From positions 1-41,266 of the forward strand of contig CACWQH010000019.1 of the NCBI GenBank assembly GCA_902762955.1: 41,266 bases of DNA, written 5' to 3'. The notes under the pieces are model-generated. The model did not search any database and was not told the DNA's origin. It saw only the letters and a program-made list of their open reading frames with translations. Position 1 is the first letter of the stretch. Every line of letters begins with the position of its first letter. The DNA comes from an uncultured Lachnospiraceae bacterium. Lineage in GTDB: Bacteria; Bacillota; Clostridia; Lachnospirales; Lachnospiraceae. Positions 3,695-7,190 of the stretch are shown piece by piece. The position numbers and the translations under genes are program-made.

Positions 3695-4654
3695 ATGGGT
3701 TTATTCAGTAAAAAGAATTCCGAACAAATGACAGATAACCAGCAGTTTATCCCTGTTGTAAATAACAGATCAAACAACAACGAGGTTATGCTTTCAACAG
3801 TTAAATTTTTAAAGGATACAAATGATGAGCTGGTTAAGCAGAATCTTAAAACAGTACGTGGTATAGATGGTATATATCAGACTATGGAGCATATGGCAGA
3901 CGAAAACCAGACTCTCCTTTCAGAATGTAGCAATATGCAGGGCAACTTTGACAACATTATCTTAGTTGCCAATAATTTCAGCGATGTAAAAAACGGTATA
4001 GAAACTTCAGTTGCCACAGCACAGGAGCAGGTTGAAATTCTTCGTGACAGTTCCAACGTTGTTACAGAGCGTTTCAGTGACATGGATTCAATTTTCCAGC
4101 AGCTACTTGAAGCAGTTGAGCATATCAAAGCTTCTACCGAAGGCATCACAGCCATAGCAAACCAGACCAATCTTCTGGCCCTTAACGCATCCATCGAAGC
4201 TGCCAGAGCCGGCGAGCAGGGACGCGGCTTTGCAATTGTTGCCGATGAGGTACGTAAGCTTGCCGATGAAATCAAAACATTAATAAGTGACGTCAACAAG
4301 AGCATAGAGGATGTAGGCAGCACCACCGCTGACCTCAACAAATCTCTTGAAGAATCCAAATCAGCACTTAACACCAGTATCGAAAATGTAGCCGGTACTC
4401 ATGAAATCTTCAACAATATAAGCAAGAATGTTGAAAACATAGAAAGAGTCAGCTCTTCCATAACCGATGCAGTTTCCGAAAGCAAGCAAAGTGTTGACAA
4501 CATCACAATGTACGTCGACAAAACGGCTAAGAACTTTGATGCATCCATCCAGCAGATTAATGACATCAAGATGTCCGATACCGAAAAGGGTACTCTCTTC
4601 GAGGACTTCAACAACATGATCGGACAGCTGCCTTATCTTATCAAAGATAACTAA
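3695..4654 (+). CDS. Soluble methyl-accepting chemotaxis-type signalling protein
   Basis: 319 residues, long coiled coil, no membrane segment. The MCP hairpin-tip signature that contacts CheA/CheW is clear at about residues 151-193: [20 protein letters not shown], then [17 protein letters not shown]. The N-terminal ~90 residues have no recognisable sensory domain, which fits the idea that the upstream FIST protein provides ligand recognition. The ribosome site GGAGGTGG overlaps the FIST stop codon (ATG 3695). No che or flagellar genes lie in the window, so the output could be a chemosensory array elsewhere or a non-motility pathway. The stop codon TAA (4652-4654) is the first three bases of the outer inverted repeat of the large non-coding locus. 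Confidence 0.9.
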
Positions 4655-4675
4655 ATTACGGTTTATCGGGTGAGG
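4652..4675 (+). repeat. Outer inverted repeat, left copy (contains MCP stop codon)
   Basis: Begins TAAATTACGG and continues TTTATCGGG. Its partner is 5737-5760 on the opposite strand (TAAATTCCGT then TTTATCGGG), with 20 of 24 positions identical. The first three bases of each copy are the stop codon of the adjacent gene. Confidence 0.8.
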
Positions 4676-4971
4676 TCGTCAGGATTAAAGGGTGTAACTG
4701 CCGGAGTAAGTTTCCTTAGGGTGCTTATCATATATAAGGTCTTCGAAGGACACGCTCTCGAGAGGGTTTAGACGCAAGCTCACTAACCTCAATATAATTT
4801 CAGAAAAAGGGATTAAAATCATTTTTGCATAAATGCAAAAGTTTTTAATCCCTTTTTCTTCATTATATTTCGCTAAGTGAACGCGTCTCTAAACGGTCCT
4901 TCTAAAGACCTATATATGATTTCGCACCCATTTAGTTTATGAATCGGCAGTTACACCCATATCCTGCCGAC
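4675..4971. repeat. Arm A: ~300-bp imperfect palindrome
   Basis: Successive blocks pair inward. 4675-4685 pairs with 4961-4971 (10/11). 4690-4703 pairs perfectly with 4945-4958 (GGGTGTAACTGCCG). 4719-4751 pairs with 4896-4929 with a few mismatches. 4766-4775 pairs with 4883-4894. The core 4803-4818 pairs perfectly with 4843-4858 (GAAAAAGGGATTAAAA), and its loop holds a further hairpin TTTTGCAT-AA-ATGCAAAA (4823-4840). The core could act as a bidirectional terminator for the convergent genes, but the outer blocks are far longer than a terminator needs. Confidence 0.85.
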
Positions 4972-4987
4972 ACGCTACGCGAGATGA
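4968..4987 (+). repeat. Inner inverted repeat, left copy
   Basis: CGACACGCTACGCGAGATGA matches the reverse complement of 5414-5433 at 18 of 20 positions. It starts where arm A ends and closes the lobe that carries the tandem arrays. Confidence 0.7.
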
Positions 4988-5040
4988 AAATGTGTTTATA
5001 AAGTGTGGCCTTTTCTTGTGATCTGCCAGCCGCCGCTTTA

Positions 5041-5227
5041 AGCAGGTAACAAAACTTGCTTTTTTGCCGCTTTTGTTACCAGTTTGGCTTCTCTTGATGC
5101 TTTGGTTTTCTTTAAGCAGGTAACAAACTCTCCTTTTTTGCCGCTTTTGTTACCAGTTTGGCTTCTTTTGATGCTTTGGTTTTCTTTAAGCAGGTAACAA
5201 AACCTCCTTTTTTGCCACTTTTGTTAC
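5041..5227. repeat. 74-bp tandem repeat, 2.5 copies, each with a hairpin
   Basis: Units starting AGCAGGTAACAAA begin at 5041, 5115 and 5189, exactly 74 bp apart. Each contains GTAACAAA ... TTTGTTAC, a stem of 8-10 bp around a variable pyrimidine-rich loop. The third unit stops after its hairpin. The segment 4988-5040 before it holds nothing recognisable. Confidence 0.85.
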
Positions 5228-5305
5228 TTTGATATAATCTTATGTAAACCAAGTATTCTGACTGACATTAACGATAGAATAAGTATAAAAAAGGTCAACT
5301 TTAAA

Positions 5306-5408
5306 TAATAGTTAAATATTAAATAATAGTAAATATCATATAATAGTAAATATCATATAATAGTAATTATCATATAATAGTAATTATTAAATAATAGTTA
5401 ATTATCAA
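5306..5408. repeat. 17-bp AT-rich iteron-like tandem array
   Basis: The hexamer TAATAG recurs at 5306, 5324, 5341, 5358, 5375 and 5392, giving six units spaced 18, 17, 17, 17 and 17 bp. The unit is roughly ATAATAGTAAATATCAT. The array is almost pure A/T and directly precedes the inner inverted repeat. Regular spacing suggests either replication slippage or a row of protein-binding sites. Confidence 0.85.
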
Positions 5409-5413
5409 GTATA

Positions 5414-5433
5414 TCATCACGCGAAGCGTGTCG
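5414..5433 (-). repeat. Inner inverted repeat, right copy
   Basis: Partner of 4968-4987. On its own it also forms a small perfect hairpin CACGC-GAA-GCGTG (5418-5430). Arm C begins directly after it. Confidence 0.7.
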
Positions 5434-5729
5434 ATTATAGAGTGGTATGTACGAGGCCGGCTATTAGCAAGGTGCTAAGCATAGCCGTTTGAAACCTGTG
5501 AGCACTTAGCAAATAAATGTCTATTCTTCTTACGAAGCAAGAAAAATAAGGATACAAGGTGATACTTGGATTTATGCAAAAGTATCACCTTGTATCCTTA
5601 TTTTATACTTGGTTTGCTTTATAATAATATACATTTATGAGCTTAGTACTCCCACAGGTTTCAAAGAGTGCGAACGTGCTATGCGTGTACCTTTGATTAT
5701 AGCCGGCCTCGTGCATACCGCTCTATAAT
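5434..5729. repeat. Arm C: ~300-bp imperfect palindrome
   Basis: 5434-5464 pairs with 5699-5729 over 31 positions with only two differences, both of which would be G-U pairs in RNA. 5488-5500 pairs perfectly with 5653-5665 (TTTGAAACCTGTG). 5498-5520 pairs with 5631-5653 at 18 of 23. 5535-5540 pairs with 5614-5619. The core 5543-5566 pairs perfectly with 5581-5604 over 24 bp around a 14-base loop. The loop end ATGCAAAAGT is identical to that of arm A (4833-4842), so the two arms look related. Confidence 0.87.
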
Positions 5730-5736
5730 TAACTCC

Positions 5737-5760
5737 CCTTGCCCGATAAAACGGAATTTA
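5737..5760 (-). repeat. Outer inverted repeat, right copy (contains sulfhydrylase stop codon)
   Basis: Read on the minus strand it begins TAAATTCCGT and continues TTTATCGGG, matching 4652-4675. Its first three bases are the stop codon of the O-acetylhomoserine sulfhydrylase gene. Confidence 0.8.
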
Positions 5761-7035
5761 CTCAAGTGCCTGGGCAAGATCTGCGATGAGGTCTGCTTTG
5801 TCTTCGAGACCGCAGGAGATACGAATTAAACCTGCAGGTACTCCAGCTGCTTCAAGCTGCTCATCATTCATCTGACGATGGGTTGAGGTTGCAGGATTAA
5901 GGCAGCAGGTTCTGGCATCTGCTACGTGAGTTTCGATAGCTGCTATTTTAAGCTTTTTCATAAAGGCTTCGGCAGCAGGTCTGCCACCCTTTATGCCAAA
6001 GGATACGACTCCACATCCGCCGTTTGGCATATATTTCTTTGCTATCTCATAGTATTTGTTGCTCTTTAAGCCCGGATAATTTACATATTCTACGTTTGGA
6101 TGCTGCTCTAAAAATTCTGCAACAGCCTGTCCGTTTTCAACATGTCTCGGCATACGTACATGAAGTGACTCAAGACCGAGGTTAAGCAAAAATGCATTTT
6201 GAGGTGACTGAATTGAACCAAGGTCACGCATAAGCTGTGAGGTACATTTTGTTATAAATGCACCCTCCTTACCGAATTTTTCAGCATAGGTTATACCATG
6301 ATACGATTCATCAGGAGTTGTAAGTCCCGGGAACTTATCCTTGTAAGCCATCCAGTCAAACTTTCCTGCATCAACTATGGCGCCACCTACTGCTGCACCG
6401 TGGCCATCCATGTATTTTGTGGTTGAATGTGTAACTATATCAGCACCCCACTCTATAGGTCTGCAGTTTACAGGAGTAGGGAATGTGTTATCAACTATAA
6501 GAGGTACACCGTGTGCATGTGCGGCCTTGGCAAACTTTTCTATATCAAAAACAGTAAGCGCAGGATTTGCAATTGTTTCACCAAATACAAGCTTGGTATT
6601 GTCCTTAAATGCCGCATTAAGCTCCTCTTCCGTGCAGTCAGGAGAAACAAAGGTTGTCTCAATTCCCATCTTTCTCATGGTTACATCAAGGAGATTAAAG
6701 GTTCCTCCGTAAATGGATGACGAAGCAACTATATGTGAACCCGCCTCACAGATATTAAAGAACGCAAAGAATGATGCAGCCTGTCCTGAAGATGTAAGCA
6801 TGGCTGCGGTTCCTCCCTCAAGCTCTGCTATCTTTGCAGCCACATAGTCATTGGTTGGATTCTGGAGTCTGGTGTAAAAATAACCCGAAGCTTCAAGGTC
6901 AAAAAGCTTACCCATATCTTCACTTGTGTCATACTTAAATGTAGTTGACTGAATTATCGGTATCTGTCTTGGCTCGCCGTTTCCCGGATGATAGCCTCCC
7001 TGTACACATTTTGTATTAATTGAAAAATCACTCAT
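5758..7035 (-). CDS. metY: O-acetylhomoserine sulfhydrylase (aminocarboxypropyltransferase)
   Basis: About 425 residues of the Cys/Met-metabolism PLP enzyme family, normal length for O-acetylhomoserine sulfhydrylase (EC 2.5.1.49), which makes homocysteine from O-acetylhomoserine and sulfide in the cytosol. Visible are the N-terminal TRLQNPTND, the PLP-phosphate region TSSGQAA, the cofactor-contacting DNTF, the Schiff-base lysine in HSTTKYMDGHG, and the late LNPATSTHRQM block. I chose ATG 7035 because GAGG lies about 9 bp upstream; GTG 7050 is in frame but is itself part of that ribosome site. No SAM or T-box leader is visible in 7036-7190. It converges on the MCP gene across the large repeat locus. 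Confidence 0.92.
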   Translation of the reverse strand: MSDFSINTKCVQGGYHPGNGEPRQIPIIQSTTFKYDTSEDMGKLFDLEASGYFYTRLQNPTNDYVAAKIAELEGGTAAMLTSSGQAASFFAFFNICEAGSHIVASSSIYGGTFNLLDVTMRKMGIETTFVSPDCTEEELNAAFKDNTKLVFGETIANPALTVFDIEKFAKAAHAHGVPLIVDNTFPTPVNCRPIEWGADIVTHSTTKYMDGHGAAVGGAIVDAGKFDWMAYKDKFPGLTTPDESYHGITYAEKFGKEGAFITKCTSQLMRDLGSIQSPQNAFLLNLGLESLHVRMPRHVENGQAVAEFLEQHPNVEYVNYPGLKSNKYYEIAKKYMPNGGCGVVSFGIKGGRPAAEAFMKKLKIAAIETHVADARTCCLNPATSTHRQMNDEQLEAAGVPAGLIRISCGLEDKADLIADLAQALE

Positions 7036-7190
7036 TTTTTTTATCCTCACTTTTTATAGTTTTATTGTATTCTTTTTATTATCATTTCCCCTTAAATATG
7101 ATTCATAAATCTGATTAATCCGTTTTATATCATTCTATAGAAAATATCAACTTCATTACCGACAGCAATTAACAATAAAAAATATATCGT

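Follow-up and report, generated by a model that had tools for sequence, protein, structure and literature searches.

The segment at 4652-5760 of the window, the window being the whole stretch of 41,266 nucleotides analysed here, follows a modular plan that recurs elsewhere in its own genome and in related species, and is neither an accidental stack of palindromes, nor a fixed unit, nor unique. It is quite probable, in our judgement, that the segment belongs, as one copy, to a dispersed family of modular palindromic repeats, lacking long open reading frames and resembling the BOX elements in type, and this reading, including a part in transcription termination and a manner of spreading that we infer from sequence comparison, gives the best explanation of the observations described below.

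Layout of the composite and its family

The composite fills the gap between two convergent genes. On the left, a gene with an MCP signalling domain (3695-4654, plus strand; PF00015, E = 5.7e-33) ends with TAA at 4652-4654, and on the right, a gene for a PLP enzyme of Cys/Met metabolism (5758-7050, minus strand; PF01053, E = 1.2e-122) ends with TAA at 5760-5758. Both stop codons lie within the outer arms of the element, i.e., the left terminal repeat (4652-4675, plus strand), the motif of which recurs elsewhere, and the right terminal repeat (5737-5760, minus strand), which pair with each other over 24 nt at 83% complementarity; this placing of the stops was absent from the preliminary description. 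The left repeat is followed by a hairpin arm of type A (4675-4971, plus strand), an imperfect palindrome of about 300 bp with covariation (see below) and with stems including 4690-4703/4945-4958, 4727-4751/4896-4920 and 4802-4824/4837-4859; its apical stem (4802-4859, no strand assigned) is preceded by an A-run and followed by a T-run on both strands, as in a terminator. The inverted-repeat listing then gives a pair of inner repeats (4968-4987 and 5414-5433, both entered on the plus strand; 20 nt, 90% complementary), between which lie two tandem arrays. The first consists of three 74-nt repeats (5036-5257, plus strand), each with a GGTAACAAA...TTTGTTAC hairpin, the third being 69% alike to the first with a diverged second half, and the second is an A+T-rich array of 17-nt period (5296-5419, plus strand) taken from the repeat listing. 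The hairpin arm of type C (5434-5729, plus strand) was recognised from the inverted-repeat listing and from BLAST matches elsewhere in the genome, with stems at 5416-5485/5678-5747 and 5543-5567/5580-5604, and its apical stem (5543-5604, no strand assigned) is a perfect one of 25 bp. No open reading frame of at least 80 amino acids is listed between the two flanking genes.

The nested inverted repeats and the two enclosed arrays of the preliminary description were thus all recovered. Folding of 4652-5760 with RNA parameters gave the same nested plan, 20/24, 87/148, 18/20 and 114/134 bases being joined to the expected partner, and DNA parameters gave an identical plan with 22/24, 92/148, 18/20 and 117/134. 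The minimum free energy was -419.8, compared with -245.4 +/- 8.2 for 30 dinucleotide shuffles (z = -21). The single four-way junction proposed for this segment holds for the window copy and not for other copies, which carry other arms or one arm only.

The plan of the family may be written as terminal repeat (AAAYTYCGGTTTRTCG), hairpin arm of about 300 bp (type A, C or D), inner repeat, arrays of small hairpins, inner repeat, arm and terminal repeat. Within the own genome (81 contigs), BLAST gave 47 matches for the first arm and 29 for the second, counting fragments and palindromic self-matches, and the pattern AAAYTYCGGTTTRTCGRGC with at most 3 mismatches was matched 38 times, compared with 3 for the reversed pattern. 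A search for TAAAYTYCNGTTTRTCGSR with at most 1 mismatch among 37 genomes of the genus gave matches in 13, i.e., 32 in the own genome (G000), 26 each in G024 and G023, 20 in G019, 9 in G015, 6 in G022, 2 in G013, and 1-2 in six more; 24 genomes had none, and the reversed control gave 0-2 per genome. The family is, judged from these counts, concentrated in a group of related species within one genus. The exact 18-base motif of arm A was also found in the Lachnospiraceae MAG records RGIG4472 (roe deer) and RUG13380, while other organisms gave single matches, at loci where the motif scan yielded no arm-bearing end, and the viral contig collection gave no match to this motif.

Recurrence of the modules in order was seen at other loci. 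L073 and L074 both carry arm A, inner repeat, 74-nt array and inner repeat, followed in L073 by the start of C and in L074 by the start of an inverted A, each cut by the contig end. In L102, arm A and the inner repeat are followed by a different array, of GGCTATAAAT...GTTAGCC hairpins, and then by a D-like arm; arrays of this type stand also in L096, between A plus inner repeat and an A-outer end with terminal repeat, and in L108, between C plus inner repeat and D. L297 has A-outer, inner repeat, a third type of array (TTTACCTATAA...TTATAGGTAAA hairpins) and a C-like end. The second complete composite of the own genome, L042 (1275 bp), differs from the composite of the window in its left half, consisting of a D-like arm and the third array, and agrees with it in the right half, with 74-nt array, A+T stretch, inner repeat and a short C. 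The family thus has two end modules (arms A, C, D) that enclose an internal tandem module, variable in copy number (three hairpin-array types). As a minor observation, the 17-nt array of the window (5296-5419) adjoins the inner repeat, and a shorter similar stretch occupies the same place in L042.

Complete copies were collected from 30 listed pairs of terminal repeats, of which 13 were judged to belong to the family and to be correctly paired at both ends; L297 was added to make 14. At least four rows (L048, L058, L246, L315) combine a family end with a wrong partner, and the remaining rows were left out as chance by eye. The accepted copies range from 43 bp (L304, two ends only) to 1275 bp, and no open reading frame of at least 100 amino acids was found, the longest being 89 amino acids among the 13 of 14 copies listed in the terminal-repeat pair scan. 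The 43-bp copy (L304 934-976; G024:C98) consists of two terminal repeats that occupy all of the space separating two convergent stop codons. Among L246, L248, L256 and L271, L251, L247, further arm types were noticed in G015 and G022, and in G004 and G013 hairpins whose core is A-like and whose outer part differs, so that the superfamily looks wider than the three named arm types.

Position of the element at stop codons

The relation of the element to genes was analysed for 62 ends with recognisable terminal repeat and arm. The motif scan gave 60 of these, L167 having been dropped as a repeat of L097 (a single RUG13380 locus, mislabelled G024), and the two ends of the window composite, which the arm filter of the scan had missed, were added. 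Orthologous sites were counted separately for each genome, so that these ends are not all independent. An open reading frame of at least 60 codons ending within -12 to +2 of the element adjoins 41 of them, and 38 of these 41 are fused to the stop codon (34 with TAA at offset 0 and 4 at offset -1; the remaining 3 lie at -5 or -8). The other 21 ends have no such frame, though in 4 of them a frame of 63-78 codons enters the element. The family usually sits flush against the stops of ordinary genes, and sometimes against those of two convergent genes. Since the first base at these 21 ends is mixed (T 9, C 6, A 6), the element itself seems to start with AAAYTYCGG, the T being supplied by the stop codon of the gene. 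Ends with another terminal sequence also abut stop codons, at the PLP gene in G024 and at a gene in G015 that we take to be a relative of Jag.

Differing arms at the same sites in related species, and their possible exchange

For comparison of the same gene ends between relatives, 8 genes were read in 8 genomes, giving 58 gene ends (60 rows, with two duplicate G004 contigs). By our reading, an element with terminal repeat adjoins the stop in 33 (in one, the LKK gene of G023, this repeat is degenerate), a related hairpin lacking the repeat was seen in 4, and the remaining 21 show either a plain terminator-like hairpin or no obvious structure; the same gene ends thus show, in some relatives, a simple hairpin resembling an intrinsic terminator. 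The stop codon is TAA in all 33 element-bearing ends, and TAA, TAG and TGA in 20, 3 and 2, respectively, of the other 25. The C-terminus of the protein is equal in length in 57 of the 58 (one residue longer in one), and the genes are therefore not truncated. The arm itself changes from species to species: the site of one gene has arm A in G000 and G024, C in G019 and D in G023. At the gene ending in MPAGAMIS (L255, L262, L264), the tip stem in G019, ACAGGGCTATAAA, resembles by eye the plain hairpin ACAGGCTTATAC of G015 and G022; arm tips were perhaps captured from local terminators.

At the window site, the gap in G013 measures about 60 bp and holds a simple hairpin that looks like a two-way terminator; in G023, the MCP gene adjoins a D hairpin and the PLP gene a small one; and G019 has a D arm, array and terminal repeat at the PLP gene, its contig ending before the MCP gene. 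In G024, terminal repeat, A-outer and inner repeat are left as a remnant of the left half beside the MCP gene, and a remnant of C-outer stands beside the PLP gene, the two being separated by other genes; this arrangement argues that the window composite is not a product of assembly. The genes between these remnants (L212 2887-4281, L303 1-880; G024:C47) look TetR-like and esterase-like, as named by eye.

This comparison bears on whether the composite is a chance stack of unrelated palindromes. Relatives with a single arm at the site, or arms occurring independently at many loci without the outer and inner repeats, had been named beforehand as signs of such a stack. Half of this was observed, the site being occupied in relatives by a single arm (G023), by no arm (G013) or by different parts (G019, G024), whereas elsewhere the arms mostly come with outer or inner repeats. 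The order of arm, inner repeat and array recurs in L073, L074, L096, L102, L108, L297 and L042, and G024 keeps the left and the C-outer remnants each at its own gene. A chance stack is contradicted by this recurrence, and we regard it as exceedingly improbable.

Possible exchange was examined with hand-picked ends bearing arm A, 9 of them in G000 and 10 in G024, three sites being shared. At the three shared sites the genes are 95-96% identical over 300 nt, and the first 95 nt of the element are 78%, 89% and 89% identical; the same 95 nt at different sites are on average 82% identical within G000 (36 pairs), 91% within G024 (45 pairs) and 84% over all 90 pairs between the genomes. On these three sites, a shared position therefore adds hardly anything to the likeness of two elements, compared with sites taken at random. 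In a bolder reading, stop codons would be fixed docking sites, where the T of the gene and the initial AA of the element make up TAA, and a dedicated recombination system would swap whole arms between sites, the genome overwriting its own 3' boundaries; we consider this unlikely.

Pairing, possible termination and likeness to known repeats

Pairing was analysed with an alignment of 17 of the 19 arms of type A, the short L071 and L097 being left out. Double compensatory changes were found in 27 of 84 pairs, compared with 9.2 +/- 1.9 in shuffles, none of 500 reaching 27, and controls with slid pairing gave 4-9 such pairs. As many as 96.9% of the cells pair, and cells changed on both sides number 63, compared with 15.7 after shuffling. 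The two terminal repeats of one element are identical at 16.9 of 19 positions, compared with 14.5 for shuffled partners (14 elements, the relatedness of the copies being uncontrolled). A strand bias of G-U pairs, which would point to selection at the RNA level, was not seen: such pairs are few, numbering 53 and 70 for the two strands over the 19 arms, with no clear bias.

The covariation of the arm could be produced by selection on the hairpin or by hairpin-templated correction, and either process would keep the palindromes symmetric. If the symmetry arose from DNA-level processes alone, such as hairpin-templated mutation or gene conversion of palindrome halves, the covariation would say nothing on function. 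This is a possibility to be reckoned with, though we do not favour it: it agrees with the excess of cells changed on both sides and with the rarity of G-U on both strands, whereas internal loops and mismatches, judged by eye, hold the same places in the alignment of arm A, and blind correction should erase them.

Among the candidates of the preliminary description was a giant structured RNA, and a non-coding RNA spanning the cloverleaf would indeed go well with the very stable fold (z = -21), with the strong covariation and with the 9 promoter-like sites found within 4600-5800 compared with 4.2 +/- 1.8 expected, this region being rich in A+T. Its paired positions are, however, nearly all Watson-Crick, with few G-U and no clear strand excess, the members are fused to the stops of unrelated genes, and the arms differ at one and the same site. 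The Rfam models, including GOLLD, ROOL and OLE where present in the model set, gave 0 matches in the window at the gathering score, and a permissive search (E up to 5) gave 34 weaker matches, mostly to microRNA and snoRNA hairpin models and each under the gathering score. We therefore find this candidate very hard to maintain.

Returning to the family of dispersed repeats, the tips of the A arms are rich in T: 16 of 19 arms have at least 6 T within some 8-nt stretch past the inner part of the stem on both strands, and 19 of 19 have this on one strand, the count being taken in an A+T-rich region and with no shuffled control. These tips, together with the plain hairpins at element-free sites, suggest a two-way terminator. 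The symmetric tips of A-run, stem and T-run would end transcription from either side, an element with such tips could replace an ancestral terminator without harm, and each family member would be the shared 3' boundary of its neighbour genes. Since an element lies beside a native terminator-like hairpin in L298, the replacement of a terminator is not obligatory. A scan for consensus terminators with loops of 3-8 gave 1 site within 4600-5800, with 1.0 expected, and this site is not at an arm tip, so that the scan lends the terminator role no support.

As to mobility, the copies may spread in the manner of MITEs, their parts then being shuffled by recombination between many copies; alternatively, a transposase might drive both spread and shuffling. 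The terminal inverted repeats and the lack of a long open reading frame are traits of MITEs. Transposases were searched in the draft genomes for the families Y1, DDE_3 and DDE_Tnp_1: none of the three was found in G000, G019, G023, G024 and G015, the five genomes richest in the element, while G013 has no Y1 and one DDE_Tnp_1 match at a contig end, and G022 has one Y1 match. Target duplication was not readable at the single-sided insertions, and sites without the element do occur. The family could well be a selfish MITE without function, with its cognate transposase missed or lost and its place at stop codons due to insertion preference or survival, and we give this a substantial chance, if short of an even one. 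Dispersed copies of 43 to 1275 bp, with terminal repeats at both ends and none with a frame of 100 amino acids, speak for it, and against it count the lack of these transposases in the five genomes, the lack of a readable target duplication, the occupation of the same sites in several species and the conservation of pairing far past the ends. The earlier suggestion of a composite of small palindromic mobile elements thus came close to what was observed.

The nearest known system that we found is BOX of S. pneumoniae. It consists of boxA and boxC flanking tandem boxB units that vary in number, has paired terminal repeats, is over-represented between convergent genes and encodes the stop codon in 36 cases with no strong evidence of truncation, and the BOX of S. 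suis has alternative end modules (PMC3049150, in the parts available). The family agrees with BOX, as far as these parts describe it, in its composite nature, paired terminal repeats, variable array and supplied stop, a likeness of plan and not of compared sequence. It differs in belonging to another group of organisms, in having hairpins of about 300 bp as end modules, in stop fusion being the rule (38/41) and in the change of arm type at orthologous sites of sister species. SPRITE, a pneumococcal repeat enriched between convergent genes, has an 18-bp duplex with a U-rich tract and is, like the family, similar to a Rho-independent terminator; as far as the same parts of PMC3049150 go, it is without the arm-array-arm plan. 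REP/BIME with RAYT, according to the available parts of PMC3733652, are palindromic units of 20-40 bp, mostly downstream of genes, and a TAG stop is often supplied by the ends of GTAG REPs; the G-T pairing noted there is rare in the present family, and no Y1 was found in G000, G019, G023, G024, G015 and G013. QMITE2, a MITE of Coxiella burnetii, lies mostly 3' of open reading frames, in one case with the stop directly before the element (PMC5896051; also PMC10969869, both in the parts available), and no arm-array-arm plan is described in those of PMC5896051. In the open-licence literature searched, no paper was recognised as describing the family. Within that literature the type is already known, and what is new is how large the arms are, how regularly the element is fused to a stop codon, and that one arm type gives way to another at orthologous positions.

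With this family, composite repeats of BOX type would extend to rumen Lachnospiraceae and to a far larger size. The same gene 3' ends carrying a plain hairpin, one arm, two arms or two ends only in sister species make a natural experiment, bearing on how repeats come to lie at stop codons and on whether they terminate. The element-rich genomes are drafts of 50-260 contigs, many of which end within repeats. Repeats lie at many contig ends of the present draft genome, 31 of its 162 contig ends (e.g. L073-L076, L198-L206) being within about 910 bases of an element end, and the repeats therefore probably break the assembly.
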